The notes under the pieces: generated by a model | What the model was told of the DNA's origin: nothing | Seen by the model: only the letters and a program-made list of their open reading frames with translations | Databases searched by the model: none | Position numbers and translations under genes: made by a program | Source of the DNA: Isoetes taiwanensis | Taxonomy: Eukaryota > Streptophyta > Lycopodiopsida > Isoetales > Isoetaceae | DNA length: 64,000 bases | Assembly: GCA_021234155.1 (NCBI GenBank) | Contig: JAJEKV010000129.1 | Coordinates: 1,405,963-1,469,962 of the forward strand | Reading direction: 5' to 3' | In this document: positions 6,205-59,620 of the stretch, in pieces | Position numbering within the stretch: position 1 is the stretch's first letter | How the letters are laid out: each line of letters opens with the position of its first letter

Positions 6205-9200
6205 TGTGACGTTCCAGGGAAATATACGCTATAAATACGTATATTTTTGGGTCCATCACTATACAAGTCTACTTCGTAGCCTTGTATACCTTAGGAATTG
6301 GCATGGGTGCATATCTAAGTTAAGTATATAATTTAGATAACCTTAGGATAAGGCCCATGTTCCACATGGCCTTTTCCTATTTGGCAACCGCCACATGGCC
6401 ATATCCCATTGGCGCCACGTGTCATCCCATGTGGACCCTAACCTATATTAACCTAAACCCTAACCCTAGACCTCTTTTCCTGGCCCTAACACCCTGGGAA
6501 CCTTCTTCGCACTCAAAACTCCGTTTCGAGCGCGTCGTTTGCTGTGGCATAGCCTAGTGCAGCAGCCCCCAGAGTGCGTGTATGATCTTGGAGTGAGCGC
6601 GGCTTCGACCACTTCGAGGACCATGGAGACGCCAGGAATGGGAGGGAGCACTTCAGAAGCAGATATTTGGAGTAGTGTTCTTAGTAGTTCATCTGGAAGT
6701 TAGCACTCCAGATAAGTTAGTATTTCGTATCTAGAGTAGAGCCATCCTAGAACCCTGATTCAACATCTTGAACCCTAATTAAGGAACCCTAACTGTAAGT
6801 TAGATATGTATGATTAGGTTAGATGTTATTCTGATGATTATCATGATTTGAAGTTTTCTGATGATGGTTGATCATGGTTGCTCCTCTTGTATTGGGAAGG
6901 GGAGTAGAGACATAGTAGCCTTACTTAGTAATGCTCCTAGTTAGACCCTTTAGTTCCTATTATTATGCGGCCTGCGCATAGGAACCCACCGGGCTACGGG
7001 GGCTATGGTGTGAATCAGCACTACATAACGGGGCTAGGGGAGATACGGAGGGAGGGTCCCTACTGAGCGTGGCTACTGGGGACCCCATAGCGTGCTAGGC
7101 TTAGGCATGTTGCCCTGCCTCTCAAGAGCTGCAGGTGTTGGCCTGGCTCTTGTTTTAGGGGGTTAAGTCGGGGACGGATCGTGTGCCACCACGATTCTCT
7201 AGCCGCCCATGGAACCTTTAGACTCTGGGAAGGGGAGATGCAACCCTTCCTGCCTCAACGGACCGGGGAGATGCAACTCGGCGTAGTCTTGATGGGTGAT
7301 GCCATGGGATTGCATATCTGGAAGGCTAGAGTCACGACAGAGCCCGATCTAGCCCATCTGCAAAGTATGCACAGGAGGGGCGGATGGAGTGGCCAACCCT
7401 AGCCATTGTCTATAGCCAGCCCCGCCATTGTTATGACTCGATCTGCTCTATCTTGAGGCCTAGCCGTCAGTCTACCTCCCGATGAGTTCGAGCCTTGGGT
7501 AGGAGCTCTCATGTTTTATGGCATATGTTTATCTCTGTTGTAGCTATGGATATGTGGATGTGCTACCTTTCGAGGTAGTATGGTGTATTGTTATTGCTAG
7601 TTCTGACGTTGTTTATGCTTCCGCTGTGATAGGGGCCCATAGGGGAAGGGCGTGCAAGACACCTTTGTGAAGTCCCCTACTTCTTATACGATGCACACAT
7701 CGTATCAGAAGGTGGAGCATTCCCCCTAACAGCCAAACTAGCAGGGGCCATCCACCTGACACCACTCCTAGTGGAATGAGCCAGCAAGGGAAGAGTGGAT
7801 GTGTCATTCACCCGTCTCCCTTCGGGTCGACCTATCTGCGGAAGCGTGAGTAAACATGAGCACATAATACAATATCAATACAATCACCTCGAAGGGTGAA
7901 CACTTCATAACATCATCAATAACATCAACATGAATGAATACAGCAAAAGGGGAAATCCTACCCAAGGCTCAGACTCAAGGGGGATGACTGACGGCTTGGG
8001 CCTCCAGAAGTCATTGCAAACAGAATTCATGGCAAATGGATTTGGCTGGCATAAGAACATGGCTTAGGGTAGTCCACTCCATCCGCCCCTCCCATGCACA
8101 CTTTGCAGAGTAGGTTGAAAAGTATTGGGACCTGACCGTAGTCTGCCGGGTGAATAGCCAGAGGAGCTACTGCTACTGGGTTGCATCTCCCCAGCCCCGA
8201 TGAGGCAGGAGGAGGGTCACCTCCCCTCCAGAGGCATCCATGCCCATTCCAGGCAGCTAGAGGGCCACTGCCCGTATTCGACTTAAACTCAATGGAAGGT
8301 GACGCATCACCCCAGGAGTGTCGAGCTCATGCCTTGCCCATACTCAGTGACAAGCCATGAAGCCTAGCCCGCATAGACCCCCGATAGGCCTTACTACCAG
8401 AGGGGTCAGTCCGTGATGGGACAAGTTCCTACTTGTCAACCGGTCCAGCCCCGCCACCCACAACCAGGCGGGCTCCTGTGCACGGGCCGTAAATAATTGG
8501 GAACTAGTAGGCTATCTAGGATCATCTGCTACACAGCTTTAGGCGTCTACCCCCCTTCCCAATACATGGAGGCCACAGAGTGAAATACATACAACATCAC
8601 AGAACTGAAACAGAGAATATCATCAAATCTATCTATCTAAACATCTAGAGTTAGGTTCCTTTATTAGAGCTTATGATCTCGGGACCTATAAGGCCTCTAG
8701 GGCTGAACTAACATACTAACCCAGCCTATTGCCTAGCCCAAAGGCGGCTTTGCACAACAGAATAACTAGAAACCTGGTCCTTGACCTGCTCCTGATCCTC
8801 GGAATGCATCATACCTCTGATCCTGCTGAAGACTGCTGCTACTCGATGATCTGTTGTGCAAAGACGGCTTTTCAGAGCCGAGCAATGCAAATTGGGGTCT
8901 TGACTTGGCCGAAATGGCTCAAGAGAACCCTGAATTCGAGAGAGGAAAGGAGCTCTAGGAAAAACCCTAAAATGCAAAGGGAAAAAAGGTTTAGGGTTTA
9001 AGGGGAAAGCTCTTTTATAGAAACCCTTAGGGTTAGGTTAGAAATTGGCCAAATGGGATTTAGCCATTTGGCAATGGGGTCCATGGGGTTTATAATTGTG
9101 TATGTTTATTTAACATGCACAACATTCAATGTTGCCCCCTAGGTGCAACCCTTGCCCCCTAGGTGTAACCCTATACGTCTCGCAAGTACATCATCCGTGG

Positions 9201-9265
9201 TATGTACGTGTGGCGTGGCAGTATAATATACATATTCGGATCGTATATTATGCTGGAACGTCACA
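6205..9265. repeat. Head-to-head pair of gypsy-type LTRs forming a 3 kb inverted repeat
   Basis: The block begins TGTGACGTTCCAG and ends CTGGAACGTCACA, an exact 13 bp inverted match. The left half (to about 7700) resembles the reverse complement of the right half: the 'cctacccaaggctc', 'ccactccatccgcccct' and 'gttgcatctcccc' words of the right half all occur inverted near 7200-7510. A small hairpin, ATACGATG-CACA-CATCGTAT, sits at the centre (about 7687-7706). The halves are diverged, so they are two related LTRs rather than a recent fold-back. No matching 5 bp direct repeats flank the block. Confidence 0.65.
7725..9265 (-). mobile_element. LTR of a minus-strand Ty3/gypsy element
   Basis: A closely matching copy lies at 30295-31829, so this is a dispersed LTR of about 1.54 kb. 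Read on the minus strand it starts with TG at 9265. Immediately before it (minus sense, 9266-9290) is the purine-rich phrase AAGGTGGGGACAA. This is the position and composition expected of a polypurine tract next to a 3' LTR. Minus-strand integrase C-terminal coding follows to the right, which supports this being the 3' LTR of that element. Confidence 0.75.
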
Positions 9266-10413
9266 TTGTCCCCACCTTGACTTGATGCTGTCCTCAGCAA
9301 CACGTGTCTCCCCACCTTGGAAACCTGCATATCCTGCAATCACATTTGATATATATACAATTTTACAATATAATTACCTCAATGTAACATTTAAGTTTTA
9401 ATTTCTATAACACATCCTAAGGGAGTCTTTCACCCTCTTACTTTATCATCTATTATTCACAAAATTTTATAGCTTACACCATTATTATTATTAACATAGT
9501 TCCAAAATTTCCTAAAGGTTCCACATTGTTTTCTTACAACACATTGTGACAAAATTATGTGTTGCAAGTCTTCGCAGTGTGACCTTCCTCCCGTAGACTC
9601 TCCTATTGGCCTGCAGGTCCAACACTACGCTAGAATACGTTTAATTATTATAAGGGTTGGTTATTAGGGAACCACCCATTAATTACAACTACATGAATGC
9701 AAGGCATATCTCCCGGCATAGGAAGATTATGTTCCTTCCATCGTGGCCGTGGAGACAGCGCCCTATCATGCCTAGGATGCCAGCCTACACCTTTAGTTGC
9801 CTGAGGCGTGGAGGATAGGGTCCTTCCCGTATTTGAGCGTGAAGGATGGGGTCCTCCCCGTAGTAGGCATTGACCCAAGCTGCTTTCCTATCAATGCATG
9901 CCTGAATGACCTCTTATCTCTCAAGGTCGTCTACTTCTGTGGGACGGAAGTAGACTTTTTAATCTACCTTCCACTCCCTATCGGGTCGGTGTCGACTATT
10001 TCGGTGACGAGCCGACCTTTGCATTGCTCCATAAGTTGTGGGTACTGCTTCTCAAGATCTATTTGTAGTGCCCACGTAGCGTCTTCCACTGGTAAGTGGG
10101 ACTAGGTATTGGAGAATTGAGATCTTTTTGTCTTCTTATAGGATCTGACAAGAAGAACCCCTGGAACAATCTCAAGGTGATCGTCCATTATTTCTAGTAA
10201 CTTTTGTGTCTCCAATACTTCCTCTGGATTAGGAGTGCATTTCTTTAGGGGACTTACTTGGGAAACACTATAGATCTTTAAGTGTGCTGGCAGGTCCAAC
10301 TTATAGGATTGGTTACCTACTCTTTTGGTTACCCTGAATGGTCCAGCGCACCTTGGAGCAAGCTTCTTGCAATTGTCGATGCAGAGCTTCAGCAATTGTC
10401 CCCTAATCGCCAA
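9266..10413 (-). pseudogene. Ty3/gypsy polyprotein 3' end (integrase C-terminus, chromodomain-like tail)
   Basis: The minus frame at 10102-10413 reads KLAPRCAGPFRVTKRVGNQSYKLDLP..., then HLKIYSVSQVSPLKKC. This is the GPF/Y module that closes gypsy integrases. Further on (about 9970-10100, shifted frame) LPVEDATWALQIDLEKQYPQL resembles the chromodomain-end 'EATWE' block, which targets integration to modified chromatin. A frameshift or stop separates the two. The rest down to 9266 is decayed. The element's reverse transcriptase should lie to the right but is not recognisable. Confidence 0.8.
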
Positions 10414-12600
10414 TGTTGTAATCGCCGATGCAGAGCTTCATCTATGCAATTGTCGATGCCGAGCCTCTTGCTGCTAGAGGATATCTTCGTTCTTCCTCCA
10501 CCAACTGTTGCATGTCGGCTAGCATGCATTAACGTCTTAAATAAACATTATAGTCTTGGACCCCTGCATGATCCTACTGGACTTCCCTTAATGCATGCAA
10601 TTATATTACCTAACGGTAATATTTTTATACTAACATTATAGTAGTATTGGATATATTGCTTCCAATAGTATTATATTTAACTAACTGTTATATGATAACT
10701 TTACAACCTTTAAGATATGTCATCATACAAATATCGAGGCAATACTTATTTTGAAAAGTATTTTAATTATTTATCATATGGCTAGGGTTTATATCATCGG
10801 ATCCAAGTGTTGAGCGCGTGACTCTCGCTCGCTACTTGGTTGGTGATGTATCAACCTTACATGTATATGCTTTATAGTTGCTATACTTATGAGAAGATAG
10901 ACAAATTCTTATTATATTTGTCAGGACCCTATGAAGGTTACTTAAATGCCTTTGGAAGGAATTACATCCTTGCGAAGGTTTAACTAAGATTTTATGTAAT
11001 TATTATCTTACTTTATCTCGATACTGAGATACCTACACAAGACAAAACTATCTATGCAGTTATTATGAACATATAATTTATCAACAAGACATTAAAGCTT
11101 ATGATACATGCATGATAGTATACTTAAGATTATATAATTTATGTAGTTATACAGGGTTCACAACCCTGAATAATTTAATTAAGAGCTAGGCTACTAGCTC
11201 ATTCCTAGATGCGAATGCAAGCAATAGATCATGGCGTAAGAAAATTATACTTTTCCCATCATGCATTCTATCTACACTTAGATGCAAAGCCTCTCCCCAC
11301 CTTAGTTGTCGAAGGCTAGAATACATCTCCCCATTAAGCCGGTGTCGACTAATTTGGAGACGACTTGGCCGTTGTATTGCCTCCATTAATTCGCTCCCCC
11401 GCTTTGGTGCAATTGGCTATCGCGTCAGTCTTGCATGCTGAAGGACACATAGACATTAAGCATCTATCCATCTTACACTCTATCTGCTTTGGCTACTTGC
11501 GGAACGAACTCTATTCTAAGGGTCGGCTAATTTGATGGCGATTCAATCCCTAAGATGTAGGTAGGTTTTGAGCCCCCACTTTCTTCATAAGAAAATGGTC
11601 CTACACCTCAATGTATCATATCCCCTTAATTGATGTTGTCATAACATCTCAGCTATTCTATCTACCTTAAGAGGTTATATGTTTCTTATCTAACACATTA
11701 ATTTACTAGCCTTAGCTAACATATTTAATCATCTATGATGGATGCAGCCATCATGTTTAACATATCTATCCCTAAGCGATGAGTTATTGAATTATTTAGA
11801 ACAATTCTAAATTGCAAGGTTTTATCATCATGACAATTCCTTTTGCCTCAAAAGACTATGTGATTAATGTACTTATTTTTTTGATATACCTTTCATGTAT
11901 TATTCAATTTTATATTCTAAATATCCCCCTTTTTTAGTTATTTACTCTCTTGGAATATTCTTATCAATTGAATTGATGTCATCATAACAAGTTGGCCAGA
12001 CTTGTTAGATTACTTCTTTTCATTCGATTGGATTATTCCTTGGAGGTACTAGCTTTATACATGGTCAACAATTATCCTAGTAATGATTCCTTCTTAGCGA
12101 GGTGATCAATCTCACCAAGTGGTTTCAATATGTTGGATGTCTGTTAACAATCATGTATAATTTTAATTACTCCTATGCATTTCCTTCCCAATCGTTGACG
12201 CTTAGCTCAACTTGGGGCAATCCTTTCGCGAGAAAATCTGGAAATGCCTTCCAATCTCATTATGGATGTTATCATCCATAAGCCTATCCTACTCGACTAT
12301 ATGATCGTAGCTCCTCAATCTTGGTCGCATCTCATCCACTCGTTGCCTTCTTGAAGCAGCAAGGTAACGTTATTTCGAGTTGCTCCTCCTCGATGTAGAG
12401 TCCAACTTTCTTCATTAGAGGCTTCCCATTGCTGGTGGTTTTGATGGCGTAGTTGACCACTTGAAATCTTCTATGTTACTTCCCAAAAGCCTGAAGGTGG
12501 TTTCGTTGAGAAACATCCTCCACGTTGAATTCTTCATCTTGGTGGCTAAAGGATGCCTCTAGATCCGATATTGTTGTGCCAACTCCATCCTTCGAGTCCT
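10414..12600. other. Gene-free AT-rich stretch
   Basis: No convincing coding frame on either strand; short ORFs only. It lies where gypsy integrase core and reverse transcriptase would be expected on the minus strand, but no YVDD, catalytic D/E or RNase H motif was found. Either the pol core was deleted or it has been worn beyond recognition. Confidence 0.5.
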
Positions 12601-15574
12601 GTAGCATGTTGATAGACAAGTGTTGAGGATGTTGCTGGCTTCACGCCTTCCAATTGTCTGGCATCTCTTTTCTTTGATCTGTTATACTGTGAGAGAGAAG
12701 GAATAACAAGGGAAATTATGCATGCGAGGCATATAGCTTATACTATTATGATTACAAATTCTGTTAAAGCTATTAGGCCCCCTTAGTGTCTCCCCTCGAG
12801 GTGCACACGTACTCCATGGCATTGTTGTCGATGTTCCTCCTAGTGCACTGGTGTTGAAGATCTATATCCTCCTATTTGTACGTCAGCTCATGCTCGATTG
12901 GTTGATGCTTCGTCGTTCCGGTCTGCTTCTTAATCTCGTTCTTGGGCAATAATTGCTTCCCCTTCACAATGTTTGAAGATCTTTGGAGGTGCCTCTTGAA
13001 ATTGTGCGCAATTTCTTTGGCTACAATCGTAAGGAGTTGTTCTCTTCGTCCGTTGCCTTTCGAATCGTCGATCCTTGGGTTCGTGAAGTTGCATGCGAGT
13101 TATCGTAGCTTGGTGAGGTTTCTAGCTGATTCGTCGATTCTTTGGCTCGGTTCTCCTAATCGCTTCTCCATCTGGCATGCATGTTATAAACATCACCAGT
13201 TAAGGCTCCTCAGTTGGCTCGTTGATGTCGGGTCGTCCCGAAGAATTCCTCGACGTCTACTAGCTTGCGGTCGTGGTCGTAGTTTCTGAAGATGTCTGGT
13301 TGTTCCTCCTTGTTGTTGAGGACACTCGTGTCATTAGTGTTGCTACTGCCACAAGAGGTGGAGTTGCATCCCAAGGATGTCGTCGTGCAAGCCTAGATGG
13401 TGCAGCGTTAGGGATCTTGACATGACTGGCATTATGTCTCATCTTGACATTGTGCTGGACGAGCGATCTTCTACTTGAGGCCGCTTCTCGAAGTATCTGG
13501 AGTTGAAGCTTGGCTTAGGCTCTGGTCTTCTCTCTCTCTACTTGCTCTTCCATTCGAACACTTGCTCTTGGCTATACCTGTGGTTCTTTTTTTCATCCTT
13601 TGGCAGTCGAAGTGATGGAGTTTCTTGACGCAAATGCTAAACCCTAAAACATGATCCTAAACTCATGTTTTGTACTATGTGTGAACACCCGATATCTATG
13701 ATAGACACATATATATAATTATATTGGGATTTTAATTCATCCACTTTTCTAATTTATAGAAGAGGATATGCTTAAGTGTTTATACTCCTTTAGGATTTTC
13801 CCTCCTCCAATCACGTTTGATTCTTCGGTTTTGCTGCATCTTCCTCGTTCTGCTTGACTCCGGGGTTCCTTAAGGTGTTGCAACTGTAGTTGACCTTCGT
13901 GTGTGATCTGAGGTCGTTATTCCAAGTCGCGGAGAGCGTTCCTCGATGTGAACTCTTGAGTTGAAAATGCCCCTCCTTAATGTGTTTACCTGTCATGTGG
14001 AGTGCTGTGACTGCTCAGCGTCCGTACATGCAGTGTGTCGTTACAAGGTTGAAGATGTGTGGTGCCATTGATTGCTTGAGTACGATCACCTGGTTGTTGC
14101 AGTCAGGCATTCTTGCATGTCTTCGAAGCTCTGAGCTAGCGATCGTCGGGTAGACAGTGTCATTTCTCGGCCGTTTGAATTTCTGAGTGCGACTCCTGTT
14201 GCTCAGATTTTACTTCGTTGTGAGATGCCTCCCCTATGCCTGGGAATGTTGTCGTCTCCATTGCACATGCCACCGCTCCTTCGAGTTGCCTTTGAGTAGT
14301 CTGTGGTTGTTGGCTAGGTCGGCTCCTCCGTCCTTCTGGTCGGGTCCACTCGAGTCTTGAACTACTTGACTAAGGTGCTGGAATCATCCTTCCTTGGGTT
14401 TGCAGGCGTTTCTGGATCTGGAACTCTTGTTCGTACCGACTATCCTCTTCCTCGATCTTGCCCTTGGTGTTGATATATGCCTTCAAGTCGGAGATGTGCC
14501 TTCCCTATTATGTGTTTCCTCTCTTTCCTTGATTATGATCCCCTATTTTTGAAATTGATGAAGTCATTATTGTCTTCTTACTAGGGCAAGGGGCCTGGGA
14601 GCTCGTCATATCTGGACTTGGATGTTCTGCAGTTGTCTAGCGTTGTTGCGCCTTTTGTTGATGTTGCCCTTATCCTGTTCGGCTTGTGATGCTGTCGAGG
14701 TGCTGGGTAGGAGCGCACTCGTTGTTTTCCCTCTGATTCGCATCCGCTCCTGGATCGCTAAGAACTCCTCCTCTGTATGTCACTCTTGCTGAGCCATCAT
14801 CTGCCTGATGCCGGTGTAGGCTTATATATTTGTTGATGATTGGCCAGTGTACGTCTGGGCCTCCCTTATGCTGATGTGAAAGTCATGTGTTTCCCGGTTG
14901 ATGAAGTCATCAAGGTCCAGTTGTTGACGTAAGAGATGTAGGAGCTCATCTATCCTGTCGCCCCTGTCCTTGCACTCTGGGAGGTTCTTGATGTCGTGGA
15001 GACTTAGGTACGCCTCTCCTTGGATGATTACTGGGGTTGAGCTTGTGATGCCTAGCCCAAGTGGTGGAGTTGTCCTTGCTGCTCTTAATCCCTCCTCGAA
15101 GCTCGGAAGGGCCTTCTCTGCTTGTTGCCTTTCTTGAGTGTCGGGTCGACGTCACTGATGTCCTCCATGTCCGACCCACGTCCTTCATCTTCCTCCTGCT
15201 CTTTCCTCTTGTATTCCAGAAGCATCTGCTCTTCTTCACCTGCTGCCATGGCCATAGGCTCAATATCTAGGGGTTGGACAGATGGTTCCCCTATCTGGGT
15301 CTGGGCTCTATTGGATAGGAAAATAGCTATAGCTGCGGTGTATTAGAAGTATCTCCTCCTATTTACAGCTACGGACATATAATTGGGTAAGCGGCTAGCC
15401 TTATTTTCTAGGTATTTGTCTATCTTGGGGATGTCCTACAGAGCTGTATGAAGGGCTATGCTTGGAGCAAAGTATCCTATGCAAGGGGGAAGTTCTACTA
15501 GAGAAGGACCTATCTTTGCATGGAACTCAGCCCTGATGTCCTGGTAATAGGGAGTAGCGTTGATGGTTGCCATG
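12600..15574 (-). pseudogene. Decayed Gag-like retroelement frame
   Basis: On the minus strand a protein frame can be followed from an ATG at 15574 (MATINATPYYQDIRAEF) with in-frame TAG and TAA near 15430-15340. It continues as EPMAMAAGEEEQMLLEYKRK and DMEDISDVDPTLKKGNKQRR. Further left come helical charged stretches such as LPECKDRGDRIDELLHLL and IREAQTYTGQSS. Composition and position resemble a retrotransposon Gag N-terminal region, but no zinc knuckle was seen. It may belong to the gypsy element whose 3' end is at 9266-10413, or to an unrelated insertion. Fine reading left of 14300 is unreliable. Confidence 0.4.
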
Positions 15575-21394: not shown

Positions 21395-24300
21395 ATGGAA
21401 GCGGCGGCCGAAGGCGATTTTACTTCAAGTCCACACCCTGTTAATGTGGCAATATTGACTTCGTGGTCGTTACAACACACCCACACCCGGTGGGTGGCGA
21501 TGAAGAACTGCCGATCGCTTCTCCCGGATGCTACCTCCTCCACACCATCTCCCTCCCCTTTACACCCTCTTTGCGTGTGTCTACCTCTTTTCAAACTCCA
21601 TCTCCAAAACACATTTCTGACATTCGTTGGTTTTCAAAACACCCTCCCCGCCACAATCACGAAGTATCTTCTCCTCTTCCCCTACTCAGCGTACTCACTC
21701 TATTTTTGATACTCCTTCACCTCTCCGGGAACTACACGAATCGTTGCAATATATTGTAGATTCTGCGGAGGCGTGTCTTTGCGTCTTCTTGGCCCTTCTT
21801 TTTGAGAAAGGGCTTACGAGGAAGACCTTCAAGTTCGAAAGAAAGTCGAGAACATTATTTCTTTGACGGACACGGCACTTCCGTTGAGAGGCGACAAGGC
21901 TGATGACCCCCGTGTTTGAAGGCGTGCGGTTACGCAATCTGAAAGACCTACCACCGGACCTTTGCTTTCGGAATAAAAAGTCTGCCGTGAAAAACCCGTC
22001 TGGCCGATGCGAAAAGATTTAAGAGGATCCACGGTAAAAGCTTTTAGAACTGTTATCTTGGCGATTGATGGGGCTATCTTACATGAAAATTTGAGGAGCC
22101 CGAATTCTTTGTAAAAAAAAATGCTTCTGAGGCCTTTACATTTTCGTCTTTAAAGAACATAAGACAACGGTTTTTGTCAATGTCGAAAGGTGATCAAGAG
22201 TTGTACTTGGCATCTGATTGTAAGGCCTGAAGTTGGAGACAATTTTCATACTATGTTTTGAGCAACACGATTGTGCCAACTTGCTTTTAAAAGAATACAT
22301 GCCATTGGAAGTAAATAAGCATGTCAAGAGTGCAAAAAGGTTAGAGCGGGGAATCCGTGCATTGATGACTATTCACACCCAAAGAAAGTTGTCGGTATGT
22401 TTGCCTAGAAGCAAAAGCTTGGCTGGTAGGTTTCTTTGACTCTAGCGTGGCGACTTCCAAGCAGTCGTATATCATCGTGAGCGGTATTACTAAGAAGGAA
22501 GTCTACGGCATGTACAAGGATCTTTTCGAGTTCAAGTCGGAAGTTCATATCCTATTCCTACTTCTTGAGGTTGTGGAAGCAAGAATTTAATCTTGTTAGG
22601 ATTCGAAGAGCCTGATTTTCGATTGTGTACTATTTGCTCCACATTAAAGGAAAAAGCGATCAATGGCAAAGGATATTCTAGAAAAAAGTACGTCCCTTTT
22701 CGTCTAATCCCTTCTCGTTAGCCGCGACTAGAGACATTGTCTTATGCGGCCATATACCGCGGCTATTTAGTCTTGAGTTTGTCTGTAATGCGCATAGCGG
22801 GTCTTTTTAATCTTGTAGTACTTCGCTGCAGGTCTCTTCAATCTTGTAGATCGCCCCTTCCCCGGTAGCTCTCGCCTATGCGGCGCATAACCTGCGTCTA
22901 CAAAAGCTTTTGCAGTTCTGTGGAGCCTTCGCATTTGCTTCAAAGGTCTTGACAAGCTTTGCCTATCTTGGCGCATACCGCGGCTACAAAAGCTTAGCTC
23001 TGGGATTACGTGGAGCCTTCTTTGTTGCTTCAAAGGTCTTGACAAGCTTTGCCTATCGCACATACCGCGGCTACAAAAGCTTAGCTGCAGTTACGTGGAG
23101 CCTTACTATTGCTTCAAAGGTCTTGACTAATGTCTTAATTGCGGATCGAGATAACTCAAGAGTTGCAAGTTCACGAGAGAGGCTCAAGCCTTGGAGAAAG
23201 AAGCTAGCAAAACATAGAAAGAAATCTTTGGAGAGGCCACTTTCGAATATATATGCGTGGTGGTAGGCGGCATGGACCAAAAGAAGACCTCACTTCCCCA
23301 TTTTGTAAATGTTCCAAAGGATTTAGATGAATCCGATTTTTGAGGCTTCATTTGGTTGGGGCGATGATCTTTCATGGTGTTTATGCGGTCGCGAGTATTT
23401 TTGACCTATCCAAATATACGGCGATCCTAACCTCACGGTGACAATACTAAATAAGATTTTCTTTGGCAAAGGAGAAGTTGCCTCGGTGTTGTACTACGGT
23501 TAGACAATACTACTAGAGAAAATAAAAACCAAGTTTTATTTGCTTATTTGCTTAATCTTTGGTCGGTGGGTATCTTTCGAAAGGTCAAGGTTGGTTTCTT
23601 ACTTGTGGGCCACACCCATGATCGGATAGAACAAATGTTATTGATTTTTACTGTGCGGTTGCGAAGGAAAAAAGCATTTTGTCTACACTCCTTGTGCGGT
23701 GTGATTGAGCAAGCATACAATCCGACTCGGTTTGCCGAAGTGCTTAGCGAGACTTTTGATTTTCGTGAGTTTGTTTTCCAGCGTCATGGTGATCTGAGGT
23801 CTGCTATCCATAAGTTGAATAATTTGACATTTCAACATCATGTAAAATTTTTTCTCAAGGGCGGTAAAAGCACAACTTCAAGGGAAGTACTTTGTCACCT
23901 CCCAAACTTGGCGACTGAGGCAGGCCTACAATATTTAAAATATGTTCTGAAACTAAGGTAATGAGAAGGGCTATTCGTGACCCAGCGAAAAGTGCCGTAG
24001 ACTACCTGAGAAAAGAACAAGGACAAAAATCCCGCCGTCTCAGCGACCAGCATGGAGAAAAGTATAAGGTCGGGTTTTAAGTACTTGATTGAGGAGGACA
24101 AAGGCTGGTGGGAGAATTTCTTTTCAATAATGCGGGGATGTAACTAAATCCCTCCTTGACATCTCTCACGGAAGTTGCTTTTTGTTGGCTGGTACTCAAG
24201 TTCATCCCCTTGTTGAGGCGGATCAAGGAATTGCAAAAGGGTTCCGTGTTACGCGATCTTGAAATCAACAAGGAAACGATCGTGTAATGTACCCTCGAGT

Positions 24301-30160: not shown

Positions 30161-30294
30161 ACCTATTGCTGCACTAGAAATTGGAAAAAAATTTCCCCAA
30201 TTTTCGAGGTTCTTGCTTGGGTGGTTGTTCCCAAGACTGAAAGTCTAATGTTAGTCCTAAGGGAAATGGTCAGTGCTCGATCTTGGTCTCCCCT

Positions 30295-31829
30295 GATAGA
30301 CAAACTGGCAGGGGCCATCCACTTGACACCACTCCCAGTGGAATGAGCCAGCAAGGGAAGAGTGGATGTGTCATTCACCCATCTCCCTTCGGGTCGACCT
30401 ATCTGGGGAAGCGTGAGTAAACATAAGCACATAATACAATATCAATACAATCACCTCGAAGGGTGAACACTTCATAATATCATCAATAACATCAACATGA
30501 ACGAATACAGCAAAAGGGGAAATCCTACCCAAGGCTCAGACTCAAGGGGGATGACTGACGACTTGGGCCTTCAGAAGTCATTGCAGACAGAATTCATGGC
30601 AAATGGATTTGGCTGGCATAAGAACATGGCTTAGGGTAGTCCACTCCATCTGCCCCTCCCATGCAGACTTTGCAGAGTAGGTTGAAAAATATTGGGACCT
30701 GACCGTAGCCTACCGGGTGAATAGCCAGAGGGGCTACCGCTACTGGGTTGCATCTCCCCAGCCCCGATGAGGCAGGAGGAGGGTCACCTCCCCTGCAGAG
30801 GCATCCATGCCCATCCCAAGCGGCTAGAGGGCCACTGCCCGTATTCGACTTGAACTCAATGGAAGGTGACGCATCACCCTACGAGTGTCGAGCTCATGCC
30901 TTACCCATACTCAGTGACAAGCCATTAAGCCTAGCCCGCATAGACCCCCGATAGGCCTTACTACCAGAGGGGTCAGTCCGTGATGGGACAAGTTCCTCCT
31001 TGTCAACCGGTCCAGCCCCGCCACCCAGGCGGGCTCCTGTACACGGGCCGCAAATAATTGGGAACTAGTAGGCTTTCTAGGATCATCTGCTACACAGCTT
31101 TAGGCCTCTACCCCCCTTCCCAATACATGGAGGTCACAGAGTGAAATACATACAACATCACAGAACTGAAACAGAGAATATCATCAAATCTATCTACCTA
31201 AACATCTAGAGTTAGGTTCCTTTGTTAGAGCTTATGATCTCGGGATCTATAAGGCCTCTAGGGCTGAACTAACATACTAACCCAGCCTATTGCCTAGCCC
31301 AAAGGTGGCTTTGCACAACAGAATGACTAGATACCTGGTCCTTGACCTGCTCCAGATCCTCGGAATGCATCCATGCCTCTGATCCTGCTGAAGACTGCTG
31401 CTACTCGATGATCTGTTGTGCAAAGACGGCTTTTCAGAGCCGAGCAATGCGAATTGGGGTCTTGACTTGGCCGAAATGGCTCAAGAGAACCCTGAATTCG
31501 AGAGAGGAAAGGAGCTCTAGGAAAAACCCTAAAATGCAAAGAGAAGAAAGGTTTAGAGTTTAAGGGGAAACCCATTTTATAGAAACCCTTAGGGTTAGGT
31601 TAGACATTGGCCAAATGGGATTTAGCCATTTGGCAATGGGGTCCATGGGGTTTATAATTGTGTATGTTTATTTAGCATGCACAACATTCAATGTTGCCCC
31701 TAGGTGCAACCCTTGCCCCCTAGGTGCAACCCTATACGTCTCGCAAGTACATGTCATCCGTGGCATGTACGTGTGGCGTGGCAGTATAATATACGTATTC
31801 GGATCGTATATTATGCTGGAACATCACAA
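30295..31829 (-). mobile_element. Second copy of the Ty3/gypsy LTR
   Basis: This closely matches 7725-9265 in the same orientation, including the words for AGGTCGACCCGAAGGGAG and the terminal CTGGAACATCACA. To its right, minus sense, the sequence is again purine-rich (GGGAAGGGGACACGAAGG), matching a polypurine tract. It may be a 3' LTR whose internal part is lost, or a solo LTR. The mate of the left half seen at 6205-7700 is absent here. Confidence 0.8.
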
Positions 31830-31980
31830 CCTTCGTGTCCCCTTCCCGCACTAGGGATACCCTGGAGTGCGGGATAGACGGAGGGCCCGTGCGGTCGAAG
31901 GACCAGATGGGGGATTTCCTACGGAGTGTACAGCCGGACGCCGTATATTTTGTAGGGAGCGTCACAATGGTATCAGAGCG
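31830..31980 (+). mobile_element. LTR 3' end plus initiator tRNA-Met primer binding site
   Basis: The stretch ends GGGAGCGTCACA (CA at 31965-31966) followed by A and then TGGTATCAGAGCG at 31968-31980. This is the typical plant LTR-retrotransposon primer binding site complementary to initiator tRNA-Met. It is in plus orientation, so it marks the end of a different 5' LTR whose start has been lost, possibly to the neighbouring LTR. No Gag frame follows; the next coding sequence is the histone-like gene 555 bases on. Confidence 0.75.
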
Positions 31981-32534
31981 ATGTTCTTGGTTGACCAAGA
32001 ACTAGCACTGACCATGCCTCTAGTAAGTAGTCTAACATGCCTAATAGGGTGTGGAATGAAAATTCCCACCATGGAACCTCGAAAATAGGGGGAAATTTTT
32101 TCTCCTAGGTAGTGGGCCCGTAAGAATAGGCTAAGTTATTAGATGGGGAGGGGGGGAGGGGGAAAGAATGAGTCAGATTAATATTCTAGTAAAATTGGAG
32201 TGGAAAATATGCATCAGCATCAGATTTCACCCAAAACGGGTCGAAGAATCATCCCCCAAGTGAAGAATGGCGCAAATTCATAATTGACACTTCAAACCAT
32301 TAGGAAAAATTTGAACTTCATAGTATAATACATCATTAATCCTATACTAATAAATAGGTATACTGAGATAATTAATAAGGGCGCTAACTAATAGGGCTAT
32401 TAATGGTAGGAGAATATTCCCTAGAGCATCTTCCTTTTTAAATATCTTCTTGCCACCCCATTTCCCCCTAACCTTGTCTAAACCTTCCTCCTTGATAATC
32501 AGCTTAACCTAATCCGTTTTCCTGACCGTAAGAT
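31981..32534 (+). promoter_or_regulatory. Upstream region of the H3-like gene
   Basis: AT-rich, with no gene. A TTTTTAAATATC stretch at about 32427-32440 could act as a TATA element some 95-105 bp before the ATG at 32535. A pyrimidine-rich tract (ccccatttccccctaacc) follows. A G-rich run lies at 32142-32163. The promoter role is inferred from position only. Confidence 0.3.
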
Positions 32535-33692
32535 ATGGCGCGCACCAAATGCATTGCCAGGAAGTTTAGCCCAAGGCGCACATCCTCCATGGCGGCCCGG
32601 TGTAGTCCAGGGCAAGAAGATCCCCAGCATCTTCTGCCCAGGGGGAGGGAGGAGTCGTCCGGCTCGGGGCGACACTTTCCCCACGCCTCGGGGAGGAAGC
32701 CGTGAGCGGCTCCTCCGTGGAGACACAACGGACGGGCCGAGATCGGCCCACTTTGGTCCATTGTCGACCAAAAGAAGGAGCAGCGGCCGGCCTGAGGAGA
32801 AGCGCGAGGAGCAAGAAGCCAGCCAGCTGAAAGGTAAACAGCAACGGGCCACCAAGAGCACGAGGTTGGCACCTCGAGCAAGAAGAAGGGCAAGAAGAAA
32901 GTGGCGGAATGGCCCGAGGAGAGCGCCCAGAGGAAGAAGAGGAAGAGGGAGAAGGAGGCAAGAAGGAGGGAGAAAAGGTCCAAGAGGGACCAGGACTGCC
33001 CAAGGGGGACGGTCCACATCGAAGAACCTCGTCGGGACCCCACCGACGAGGAGGAGGAGGAGGAAGAAGAAAGCAAGGAGGACGGGCAGGAGCAAGAGGA
33101 GCCCGTGCAAGACGCGGGGGAGCCATCAGACCCCAACGCTCGCCCACCCTACCCCAAGTGGCCCAAGCCACCAAAGGTGGTGAAGAAGCAGAAGGTGGGC
33201 GAGCGGGAATTCACGCTCAAACAAGATCGTGAATTCCAGCGTCGCAAAAAGGTGTACCAAGAGTACCTACGCAGATGGAAGAGGTACAATGATTGGTACT
33301 GTAAGCAGAATGTACAAAAGTACGTTAAGGGTGGGCGGCCGAAGAACCAGACCAAGTTGCCACCACCAAGACCGGAGCCACCAAAGAAGGTGCAGCACGG
33401 GCCCAACTCTAGGCATGCCTGTGTGTTCCGGGAGATTAGGCACTTCCAGCAGTGCACTAATCTCCTCATCAGGAAGGCGTCGTTCGAGCGGCTCCTTCGG
33501 GAGATTATGCAGGAGTTCCGGACGAACTACAGGGTGACACGCCTAACGGTCCGAGCCCTGCAGGAGGCAGCGGCAGCGGAGGTGACCCAACTTTTTGAAG
33601 AAGACAACCTCTATGCGATCCACGCCAAGCGGGTGACAGTCATGCCAAAGGATCTGCACCTGGCGAGGAGGATCCGCAAGGAGAAGCCCTGA
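32535..33692 (+). CDS. Highly divergent histone H3 variant with very long N-terminal tail
   Basis: The C-terminal 92 residues are an H3 histone fold: [52 protein letters not shown] and TNLLI resemble plant CENH3, whereas the short loop 1 and the MPKD...LARRIR end resemble canonical H3. The 32901-33692 frame gives 263 residues: acidic runs, basic [18 protein letters not shown], then an aromatic patch ([15 protein letters not shown]). In the same frame, an ATG at 32535 opens [12 protein letters not shown], keeping the ARTK and ARK of the H3 tail. Three in-frame stops (32703, 32793, 32835) separate the two parts. A GT-AG intron at 32702-32878 (GTGAGC...CTCGAG) would join them in frame, about 326 residues, though its acceptor lacks a pyrimidine tract. 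GC content is far above the flanks. Identity as an H3-fold protein is strong; the exon model and function (centromeric or other) are inference. Confidence 0.75.
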
Positions 33693-33867
33693 AGGCCTCC
33701 AATTTTGTAAACTATATAAATATAAGCTTTTCCCTGTATATTTTACTCATTATCTATAAAAGTCCTTTTTCTCTGTAAATTAACCTCTTCCTTGATATGA
33801 TAGTATTATTGTATGAATTAAATGTGAGTAGAATCCTTTGTATCATAATTAAAGTACTAAGAATTGT
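33693..33867 (+). terminator. 3' region of the H3-like gene
   Basis: After the TGA at 33690, TATATAAATATAAG (about 33713-33727) and TTGTATGAATTAAATG offer plant-style near-upstream and far-upstream polyadenylation elements. No poly(A) tract follows, so the gene is not an obvious processed retrocopy. Confidence 0.3.
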
Positions 33868-34396
33868 TTAATTAGCATAAAATTTTAGCATAGAAATCAA
33901 ATTTGACTCAAAAATTGGCCAACCCGGGTGAGTATGCGCCAAACGCCCTTCAAGAAGTAAATCTAAGGAGTGACTTGCACAAGGCGTCCAGCAAATGCTT
34001 GAATATTCTTTTTCAAGGTAATTCAGCCCCATGCTTTTACAATTAGATCTATTATCTGTTATAACTTGGACAACATTCTCTGGCCCAATTTCCTCTATTG
34101 TTCTTTGTATCTCTTTGAAGATCAATCTGCCTGTAATTTTATGACCATCCTTTGAGCAATCAACTGCACGATGGAAAATGGTGCCCATGCAATATCATGA
34201 TATAAATAAAATGTCTTCGGCTTCTATCTGTCCATCCATCTGTAATAATGGAGCATCCATACTTAGTCCACTTTTCTTTGATTGGTTTCAATTCTTCACC
34301 AACTATCTCTATCTCTTGATCTAATTCTTCTTGCCTCATTTTATTATATCCGACTCCCTTCCATGGTGTACTAATTTGAGATACTGCTTTGATCAT
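33868..34396 (-). pseudogene. hAT transposase, DUF659 region (3' part of a split copy)
   Basis: Two minus frames join here. The first has KEKWTKYGCSIITDGWTDRSRR, the DUF659 'SDGWTD' block with the first catalytic aspartate of hAT transposases. The second has ENVVQVITDNRSNC and YSSICWTPCASHSLDLLLE, the second aspartate block and the CxxH region. A frame break lies near 34165-34190. The C-terminal dimerisation domain is missing to the left. Together with 35718-35960 it formed one gene before the LINE inserted. Confidence 0.85.
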
Positions 34397-44215: not shown

Positions 44216-44570
44216 ACCTGTTTTGCGTCAGAAAAATCGTCAGAAACCCTTCACAGAATAGGCAATTGCCCAGACTCATATGGCTGACGCATATTCCGAC
44301 GTATATTCTCTGACGAAAAATCATCAGATTTTGCGTCAGAATTTTCGTCAGATCTTCTGACGCAAAATCGTCAGATTTTGCGTCAGAAGTTTCGTCACAT
44401 TTTTCGTCACATTTAGCGTCAGAATTTTCGTCATATTTTTCGTCATAATTATCATCAGGTTATTCGTCAGATCTTTCGTCGTAATTTTCGTCAATAAGAT
44501 CGTCGCAATATTCGTCATATGTATCGTCAGCATTTCATCATATTTTTCGTCAGTATTTTCGATATTTTTA
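44216..44570. repeat. Left subterminal repeats of the CACTA element
   Basis: More than twenty copies of a short motif, TTTCGTCAGA/TTTCGTCATA (core CGTCA), run in tandem with irregular spacing of 10-20 bp, plus inverted TCTGACG copies near the end. Such clusters bind the transposase in En/Spm elements. A few extra copies lie at about 47775-47835 inside the element. Confidence 0.9.
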
Positions 44571-49469: not shown

Positions 49470-49959
49470 AGTATTCTGACGAATATTCTGATGAATACAT
49501 TGACGAAAAAATCGTCAGAACTTTCGTCATACTTTCGTCAGCATTTTCGTCATTTTATTCGTCAGAAACCTTCGTCAGCTTATTCGTCAGATTTTACGTC
49601 ATATATTTCGTCAGATTTTTCGTCACAAGTTTCGTCAGATTATACGTCACAAATTTCGTCAGCAACTCTATGCGTCAATTTTTTCATCAATTTTTTCGTC
49701 AGAGTTATCATCAGATTTTGTGTCAGATTACTCGTCAGATTTTGCGTCACCTTTTTCGTCAGTTTTATCGTCACAATTTTCGTCAGAATATACGTCACAA
49801 ATTTCGTCAGCAAATTTATACGTCAGATTTTTCGTCAAATATTATCGTCAGTTTTTTCGTCAGAGTAATCATCACAAAAATCGTCAAAAACTCACTGGAA
49901 AAATCCATAAGATTTTTCTGACGCATTTTTTGACGCAGAACAGGCATTCTCTTGTAGTG
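49470..49959. repeat. Right subterminal repeats of the CACTA element
   Basis: About thirty copies of TTTCGTCAGA-like units, mostly in the same plus-strand sense as those at the left end, with TCTGACGCATTTTTTGACGC just inside the right terminus. Spacing is about 15 bp, longer than a helical turn. Confidence 0.9.
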
Positions 49960-57741: not shown

Positions 57742-59397
57742 CTATAGAGAAATTCCATTTTCAGAAACAGAATGACTAGTCGCATTCTTCAACTTCCAAC
57801 GTCGGTACGCGAGCGCAATCCAGTCTCCAAGATGGAGAGCAATGTATGAGCATATACCACCAATAAGACCATAAGCAATGGAGTATGTCAAAGGCATAAG
57901 GACCATGGTGAGAAAGGCAGGAATACCCTCTTTCATGTCCTCCCAATCAATTTCTTTAACAGATTTCATCATGAGCAAACCAACAAGGATCAGGGAAGGA
58001 CCAACTCCCCATGGTGGAATGGAAGCTAACAGAGGAGTGAAAAAGAATGCTAAAAAGAAGTAAAATGCAACAGTCAGGGAGGTTAAACCAGTCCTACCTC
58101 CTTCTTTTATACCAGTTGAGGATTCTATGAATGTAGTAACTGGAGATGTTCCCAGAACTGAACCAATTACTTTGGCTGTGGCATCACTCATGAATGCAAA
58201 GTATTGACCTTCAAAGTTACCCTCTTCATCCATGAAGCCTGCAAATTTAGCCATTGAGTAAAGGGTTCCTGTGGTATCTAAAATATCCACATAAAGAAAA
58301 GTAATCAAAGCAACCCACAATTCACTAGTGCCAAAAGCACTAAAGCTGAGAGCACCTGCAGTGCTTTCAATCGTATGAACATCTACAACTTTCTTGAAGT
58401 AGGCATAAGAAGTATTTCCCTGCTCAGTGTCAGGAAAATATGTTACTGCTGTTCCTCTAAACCAAGACACTCCTGTAACAAATACTATTCCATATATCAT
58501 AGCGCCTTTTATATTCTTGATCATAGCATAACCTATGATGAGAAATCCTACCACACCTAGCCAAAATGTTGCACTTTCCATTCTGTGGCTAAGGCATAAA
58601 ATATCTCCTGATACTGTGCCCCCTGGCATCAAGGTAGTTGTTCCATTAACAGTGTAAACAGGAGCAACTGCTGCCTTATATTTGCTAGGACAAGCACCCA
58701 ATGTAACCAGGGTTGATGAACTATAACCAATCAAGCCCACTCCTTCACTGGATTGAAGTCCAATAAAAGCCAAATACAGTCCAATTCCTGCAGAAGTTGA
58801 AGTTCTAACAGGTTTTGGGATCATTTTCGCGATTTTAGTTCGAAAACCCAAGGCAGCAAGAAGCAGGAATATTAATCCCTCAATAAAAACTGCAGCAAGA
58901 GCATTTTGATAATTAATGCTTCCAGATCCATGATATCCTACAACTGTATATGCAAAGTATGCGTTCATGCCCATGCCAGGTGCAAGGGCCACGGGCAAAT
59001 TGGCAAAGACCCCCATGATAAAGCATCCAATAAGGGCAGAAGCAGCTGTTGCAACAATGAGATCCTTCTTTGTTTTATCAAGGCACTGAGTATAGCCTTC
59101 ATTAACAGGAGTAAATTTGCATTCAGGGCCAGGCCTAACTAGATTTAGAGTTGTGCCATTACTGCTTAATCCATGACACTGATCAGCAGAAATAGATGGC
59201 ACATTACAGACTGAAAAACAATCCTTGACGCTGCAAGTACCACCAGAATCGCTCAGAATACTGGCATTAACTACCAGAATGTAAGCCATGGTCAAGAAAG
59301 TAGCTGTTCCAGCGCGAACTTCTCTAGTGAAATTGGTATTTCTAGATCTGAGCTTGAAATATTTACCGACAAAGCTGCTGCTTACTGCCTCGTTCAT
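57742..59397 (-). CDS. AZG1: AZG1-like adenine/guanine permease (NCS2/AzgA family)
   Basis: A single uninterrupted 551-codon frame, start ATG at 59395-59397 and stop at 57742. It encodes a polytopic membrane transporter that imports adenine and guanine, and in plants also cytokinins, by proton symport. Family marks are [20 protein letters not shown] at residues 24-43, [60 protein letters not shown] and [19 protein letters not shown], which lies in the substrate-binding half. About twelve to fourteen hydrophobic segments are visible. A plant-type cysteine-rich loop ([10 protein letters not shown]...C) follows the first segment. Length fits plant AZG proteins, and the sequence looks nearer AZG1 than AZG2. 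No intron, no damage: the only clearly intact host gene here. Confidence 0.96.
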
Positions 59398-59620
59398 CTT
59401 GGATTAGGTTGCTCTGTGTGAGTATAGAATGCTGAAAGTGTGAGTAAGATGTGTCGGGTGTGTATAGGAGATGATGTCCATGTGGTTGGTGGATGGCTTG
59501 CACAATTGATGCAAGTGTAGAGCTTGTTGGAATTGTTTTTCAGGTAGTTGTAGAGAAAGAGGATTAAATAGGGAACATGATGGGTTGGATTGCGTGGTTG
59601 GATTAGGTTATCACATTTTT
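59398..59620 (-). promoter_or_regulatory. Promoter and 5' leader of the AZG1-like gene
   Basis: On the minus strand TATTTAATCC at 59561-59570 is a TATA-type element about 165 bp before the ATG, followed by a pyrimidine-rich CTCTTTCTCTACAAC initiator-like stretch. This implies a leader of roughly 130-140 nt without an intron. Position and spacing support the call; no specific regulator site is claimed. Confidence 0.5.

Follow-up and report, generated by a model that had tools for sequence, protein, structure and literature searches.

The window, a 64,000-nucleotide stretch of the Isoetes taiwanensis genome (contig JAJEKV010000129.1), contains on its forward strand an open frame of 284 codons (32838-33692) with a histone H3 fold at its C-terminal end. 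In the same frame, an H3-like start of the MARTK type lies upstream at 32535, preceded by a leader, a primer-binding site (PBS) and the end of a long terminal repeat (LTR). The H3 fold is real, but the sequence that encodes it does not belong to the host's own histone genes. Very probably, it is a truncated and decayed copy of a Ty3/gypsy chromovirus that carries an H3-fold ORF between PBS and gag, and in whose relatives this fold is under purifying selection. Elements like that in the window are called type 1 here, and two further kinds in the same genome type 2 and type 3. The features of the locus are as follows.

7723-9265, minus strand: second LTR copy matching 30290-31828 (95.7% identity)
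9973-10525, minus strand: remains of the C-terminal/chromodomain part of an integrase, between the two LTR copies (tblastn with the L021 integrase, E 2e-49)
14798-15411, minus strand: remains of a second ORF without Pfam family, between the two LTR copies (tblastn with the second ORF of L018, E 5e-14 and 2e-10)
30290-31828, minus strand: oppositely oriented LTR belonging to a second, related chromovirus (match to 7723-9265; leader resemblance)
31829-31967, plus strand: 3' end of the type-1 5' LTR, the remaining LTR being absent from the window (homology to L007 and L008 from 31829; ends GTCACA before the PBS)
31968-31979, plus strand: primer-binding site TGGTATCAGAGC, presumably of the initiator-Met type (exact match)
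31980-32534, plus strand: retrotransposon leader from PBS to H3 ORF, common to other copies
32535-32702, plus strand: opening part of the H3 ORF, ending ahead of its first in-frame stop (start shared by 7 of 12 type-1 copies)
32703-32837, plus strand: continuation of this ORF, interrupted by three in-frame stops (a mark of decay rather than an intron; relatives are collinear across it)
32838-33389, plus strand: acidic, basic and aromatic tail, open frame (codon periodicity)
33390-33692, plus strand: H3 histone fold and stop codon (Pfam 3.3e-25; 58% identity to canonical H3)
33693-33947, plus strand: element sequence 3' of the H3 ORF (homology to other copies stops at 33947)

On its left side, the type-1 copy is interrupted by the LTR at 30290-31828, which abuts inside its 5' LTR, and on the right a hAT DUF659 fragment (33946-34345, minus strand) begins where the type-1 homology ends. 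The minus-strand element is a relative of the H3-bearing clan, because remains of the second ORF and of the chromodomain integrase lie inside it; tblastn detected no H3 remains in it. Its leader is resembled by the first ~120 bases of the type-1 leader. Since the DUF659 fragment adjoins the locus, capture by a hAT transposon was also considered, and was rejected for want of convincing terminal repeats with duplications.

The H3 fold and its tail

A reading of the letters alone, hereafter the original prediction, had placed an H3 fold at the C-terminal end of this frame. The Pfam Histone match (3.3e-25) bears this out, as do the PDB matches: all 60 listed of 175 are H3s, the best being canonical H3s. 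The prediction had further described a mixture of CENH3 and canonical traits. The motifs it named (REIRHFQ, TNLLI, a canonical-length loop 1 and MPKD...LARRIR) are all found in the fold, but an affinity to CENH3 is not supported. Identity of the fold to canonical H3 is 58-60%, against 46-47% to four hand-typed CENH3/CENP-A sequences. Among 23 diagnostic columns, defined as those where the hand-typed Arabidopsis and rice CENH3 agree and differ from H3, the window equals plant CENH3 at 2 and H3 at 11. The extended loop 1 that is a CENH3 trait is absent from the window fold, whose loop has the length of canonical H3. Together with the tree described below, the loop and the diagnostic columns led us to reject a CENH3 origin. 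Changes in the fold avoid sites invariant among H3 and CENH3 proteins (6 of 33 such sites changed vs 32 of 58 elsewhere; Fisher p 0.0008).

About 190 residues lie ahead of the fold in the open frame, in agreement with the long tail that had been predicted. The tail is coding-like: codon-position GC periodicity is strong in both tail and fold, and in each case none of 1000 dinucleotide shuffles reaches it. The predicted rise in GC is also confirmed, at 0.58-0.60 in the ORF region vs 0.39-0.42 in neighbouring 500-base bins. Third-position GC is 0.73 in the tail, 0.78 in the fold and 0.33 in a neighbouring transporter gene, and the CpG observed/expected ratio falls from 0.71 across the ORF to 0.33 directly behind it, the transporter having 0.27.

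A database search with the whole frame gave 2683 matches at E <= 0.001 with no close relative among the best 120, and a search with the fold gave 7187 matches with identity of at most 64% among the best 120. Tail residues 86-200 had no database match at E <= 10. The AlphaFold2 models are of low confidence (mean pLDDT 64.8 for the window protein and 63.4 for its fold) and not good enough to build on, and a fold search with the first of them returned no match at E <= 0.001. A giant-virus origin was rejected after scans of viral contigs with the window fold or with the metagenome protein P0083 yielded nothing; another viral contig scan found two distant loci at 35-38% identity.

Several database proteins deserve mention in their own right. 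The metagenome H3s P0083 and P0162 resemble type 1 in their MARTK-type start (MALTK in P0162), a Trp/Tyr-rich tail insert and loop 1, where their NYRVTPGTV agrees with the NYRVTRLTV of the window at 7 of 9 positions (next best among the fetched proteins, 3 of 9). They differ in being 174-175 aa long and otherwise near canonical, and their grouping with type 1 is weakly supported (86/61). P0103 (ENA, 290 aa) combines a long acidic and Ala-Pro-Lys tail, not homologous to that of the window, with a stretch of H3 fold like the window's. Finally, P0087, P0095 and P0100 resemble H4-H3 fusions, with an H4-like first half and H3 in the second.

Decay of the reading frame in the window

The predicted in-frame H3-like start at 32535 is well founded: a match to the H3 N-terminus at 8 or more of 10 positions is reached in none of 2000 mononucleotide shuffles. 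Between this start and the open frame lie in-frame stops at 32703, 32793 and 32835. Neither 32535-32702 nor 32706-32834 shows codon-position GC periodicity, the observed level being attained by 308 and 1118 of 2000 mononucleotide shuffles, respectively. The original prediction had assumed an intron here. However, all 73 frame-keeping single-intron models scored negative with a plant splice matrix, and the intron reading was dropped because related copies are collinear over the stop-bearing stretch. In one of them, L018, 222 uninterrupted codons lead from MARTK into the tail before a frameshift occurs; hence no intron is needed in the ancestral ORF, and the copy in the window has decayed.

Two further resemblances were set aside. 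A KQLATK-like match in another frame lacked significance, its best score being attained by 47 of 300 shuffles, and an H3-tail likeness after MARTK (SPRR..AAR) was suggestive at most (128 of 5000 residue shuffles; 13 of 2797 20-mers of the window).

Architecture of the type-1 elements

The 1.66-Gb host genome holds at least 40 distinct type-1 copies including that in the window (40 of 1717 candidates scored). They were found with a 594-base query (33099-33692), whose 41 rows include the window and one second partial row beside another copy; the other copies listed are 83-91% identical to the query at the DNA level. Homology between the window and these copies runs from 31829, within the LTR, to 33947, and thus takes in the LTR end, the PBS, the leader and the ORF. 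The PBS is exact in six of seven related loci checked. In 10-kb stretches around ten further copies, the shared unit takes in ~1.6 kb of LTR upstream and several kb downstream.

The window copy is truncated before gag, and its relatives show what follows. L018 and L011 show the order LTR, PBS, H3 ORF, tandem-repeat stretch, a ~370-aa ORF, gag, protease, reverse transcriptase (RT) and RNaseH, and this order goes on to an integrase with a chromodomain (Pfam Chromo 1.7e-10, in L021). The gag-pol domains recognized in the relatives are Retrotrans_gag, Ty3_capsid, zinc knuckle, protease, RT, RNaseH and integrase H2C2, and a Ty3-type gag with the order protease-RT-RNaseH-integrase occurs in L011, L018, L021, L037 and L047, the last two belonging to type 2.

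LTR pairs were found in two of four elements tested. The pair of L011/L021 is 95.4% identical over 804 columns, and its right LTR starts with TGTGACG behind a purine-rich tract, as does the left LTR; the pair of L020/L026 is 93.3% identical over 1379 columns and bounds an element of ~15 kb. Within the stretches fetched, L018 had no LTR pair and L017 had just a 157-base LTR piece. At the ends of the two elements inspected, no target-site duplication was demonstrated.

The start, MARTKC.A(R/K)K (MAHTK in L012), is present in 7 of the 12 type-1 copies examined. None of the 12 is open from start to fold, so that the window copy and the other 11 are all broken; in the seven start-bearing copies, the first stop comes after 42-222 codons. 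As a separate observation, the 40 scored copies cluster, with five neighbour pairs within 1 Mb vs 0.93 expected, a value reached by 7 of 5000 simulations that ignore contig ends. The second ORF between H3 ORF and gag measures ~370-386 aa (5277-6392 in L018; 4000-5160 in L037). It is homologous between types 1 and 2 (23% identity, E 1e-11) and matched no Pfam family within its cut-off.

Host H3 genes and further H3-fold elements

With canonical H3 as query, the host genes appeared as 15 matches, each covering all 136 residues at 96-98% identity. Canonical host H3 measures 136 aa and has no introns, and the window locus is not of this kind. Ten of the host genes were fetched and give one and the same protein, carrying A31-Y41-S87-L90; according to the accessible part of PMC4357034, A31-Y41-(S/Q)87-L90 is the H3 signature of non-flowering plants.

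In addition, at least 135 H3-fold matches occur at 71-86% identity (150 of 9022 candidates scored). Among these 135 non-canonical matches, 51 have open frames of at least 400 aa and 6 have a stop inside the match. Ten loci were fetched, picked for long frames or high identity. Nine of them are type 2 and encode one protein type, ~404-418 aa where the start is present, with an MA(I/N)(T/I)K start and a C-terminal H3 fold that is 86% identical to host H3; the three sequences listed depart from host H3 at 11-13 of the 92 fold positions. The ORF is open from the start in eight of the ten fetched loci; the remaining two are open, but their 5' side is cut or different. The tenth locus, L046, is type 3: its fold is 88% identical, and its N-terminal region is 44% identical to type 2 over 281 columns. 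Pfam Histone scores are 3.3e-41 and 1.2e-41 for type 2 and 4.6e-40 for type 3.

The sole type-2 element read through to the integrase is L037 with its continuation L047, the other eight loci having been fetched around the ORF alone. It contains, in turn, PBS, H3 ORF, second ORF, gag, protease, RT, integrase and chromodomain (Pfam Chromo 2e-08 in L047). The ORF order is thus equal in types 1 and 2, and their pol regions are 65% identical over 548 columns. Because the type-1 and type-2 tails are not alignable, a single capture of H3 is not proven.

Selection and phylogeny of the fold

Among nine type-2 copies (36 pairs, median dS 0.55), dN/dS of the fold is 0.031, with a pairwise range from 0 to 0.049, in a sample that was picked for long frames or high identity and not at random, which biases intactness and perhaps dN/dS. 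The type-2 N-domain has a value of 0.077 and the linker 0.27. For type 1, dN/dS of the fold is 0.125 (five of 12 copies, 10 pairs, median dS 0.46), calculated from copies in which the frame is open and the end motif intact. Excluded were L015 and L016, whose end motif is changed or cut, and L006, L012, L014, L017 and L020, which offered no suitable open frame or from which none was taken. These low values mean that the elements have kept the H3 fusion under strong purifying selection, and selection has maintained the H3 fold as their first ORF. The original prediction had named dN/dS near 1 as the mark of a decayed H3 copy with a random tail. Decay fits the window locus with its three stops, but family values of 0.125 and 0.031 are not near 1. 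Likewise, the lineage-specific H3 variant that it proposed does exist, with an extraordinary tail, but it belongs to a retrotransposon and not to the host gene set.

Between element and host H3, synonymous divergence has reached saturation, which indicates that the capture is old. In the tree, type 1 groups at 100/100 and type 2 at 96/92, neither of them with the hand-typed CENH3s, of which the two from plants split from all other rows at 100/100. The tree leaves undecided whether types 1-3 stem from one capture or more. An earlier tree form with the window as the sole element sequence was discarded, as it gave a long branch without a reliable place. I124L is common to all six sequences listed, and S87L and Q125H are common to the window and type 3; this is weak evidence because some of these changes recur in unrelated H3s, e.g. 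P0137.

Possible roles of the element H3

How would a retrotransposon come to carry a histone and what could it gain? An ancestral element may have captured a host-type H3 coding sequence, of which the MARTK..ARK start and the fold survive in type 1, and the H3 tail of the captured copy would then have been replaced or interrupted by new sequence. The product may pair with host H4 and enter nucleosomes, as suggested by the almost complete retention of the fold in type 2. Its foreign N-terminal part would alter what the tail offers and could change or mark chromatin to the benefit of the element, through resistance to silencing or by flagging sites for the chromodomain integrase that the element itself encodes. 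We hold such a chromatin mechanism tentatively, as a possibility somewhat short of even, with incorporation into nucleosomes together with host H4 as its most likely form. If true, a transposon makes part of the host chromatin, beyond reading it. Integration targeting and escape from silencing through the element H3 become directly testable.

A more specific version concerns the ARK motifs. Type 1 keeps the H3 start ARTKC.ARK (ARTKCTARK), and the type-2 linker has ARKS or ARKT in 4 of 9 copies and AHK(S/A) in 5 of 9, ~50-56 residues before the fold. The element could thus write its own chromatin address, with the H3 fusion deposited together with host H4 at the element or at favoured target sites and the integrase chromodomain reading the ARK motifs. 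We consider this unlikely; if true, the self-written address would be a self-made integration target or an anti-silencing mark.

Alternatively, the H3 protein may act in the particle or on the cDNA, through condensation, nuclear import or nucleosome-like packaging before integration, and not in host chromatin. The tails are basic, the ORF belongs to a particle-making retroelement, and viruses encode histones that wrap their DNA (available part of PMC9145170). The conservation of nearly the whole type-2 fold argues the other way, suggesting contact with H4 and host chaperones as in host nucleosomes, and we give action in the particle a small chance.

Less credit is due to the view of the H3 ORF as passive cargo, a piece of host sequence acquired by transduplication and without a role for the element. 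Transposon gene capture is common and the type-1 copies are broken, in line with the fungal case, where hAT DNA transposons of Dothideomycetes captured H3 and, in Pseudocercospora, truncation affects 90% of the H3-like copies and inactivation by RIP is described (accessible text of PMC6710886). A passenger is nevertheless quite improbable, given a type-2 fold dN/dS of 0.031 at dS ~0.55, an ORF whose place is kept in families with pol just 65% identical, and frames of at least 400 aa in 51 of the 135 non-canonical matches with internal stops in only 6. A host-encoded H3 variant or atypical long-tailed CENH3 gene beside retrotransposon debris is barely credible: the CENH3-like REIRHFQ and TNLLI, a bias of the changes towards sites that vary among H3s and CENH3s (p 0.0008) and long CENH3 tails elsewhere (170 residues in Cyanidioschyzon and more than 520 in Dictyostelium, in the part available of PMC9145170) would suit it, but only 2 of 23 diagnostic columns, the unextended loop 1 and the 100/100 tree split oppose it, and the dispersed copies that share LTR end, PBS and leader with the window, with gag-pol after the H3 ORF in L011 and L018, are the very findings that refute it.

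Comparison with known systems

The elements described here have gag, protease, RT, RNaseH, integrase, chromodomain, TG...CA LTRs and an initiator-Met-type PBS in common with chromoviruses, but add an H3-fold ORF and a second ORF upstream of gag. No chromovirus carrying a histone ORF is known to us, nor any retrotransposon in which a core-histone ORF is maintained. Constraint on core histones is among the strongest seen in host proteins, and chromoviruses read histone H3 via the integrase chromodomain; an element that also encodes an H3 therefore unites writer-side with reader-side pieces. Plant LTR elements such as Ogre/TAT also have an additional ORF between PBS and gag, to which no function is assigned and which, to our knowledge, is without a histone fold.

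Three other systems bear partial likeness. As in the fungal hAT elements, a host H3 coding sequence was probably captured here and amplified by a transposon, but those are DNA transposons, whereas here an LTR element carries long open H3 fusions under purifying selection (compared with the accessible text of PMC6710886). Giant viruses likewise encode their own core histones in a mobile or viral genome, some with extended tails, but they are DNA viruses, unlike the LTR elements here (available part of PMC9145170). CENH3 and the H3 of plant generative cells are also divergent H3s with an altered tail, as far as covered by the part available of PMC3380720, but these are host genes, and the window has a canonical-length loop 1 and agrees with CENH3 at 2 of 23 columns. 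For annotation, H3-like gene models in the Isoetes taiwanensis genome can be transposon ORFs.

Other features of the window

Away from the H3 locus, the window contains a 553-aa single-exon open frame of the xanthine/uracil permease family (Pfam) at 57742-59403 on the minus strand. Related TCGTCA-rich tandem repeats with units of 12/24 bases occupy 44320-44561 and 49512-49864. Pieces of a Copia-type retrotransposon (RVT_2 and integrase) lie at 145-2236 on the minus strand, and a DUF7869 fragment, probably derived from a mobile element, lies at 23455-23961 on the plus strand.
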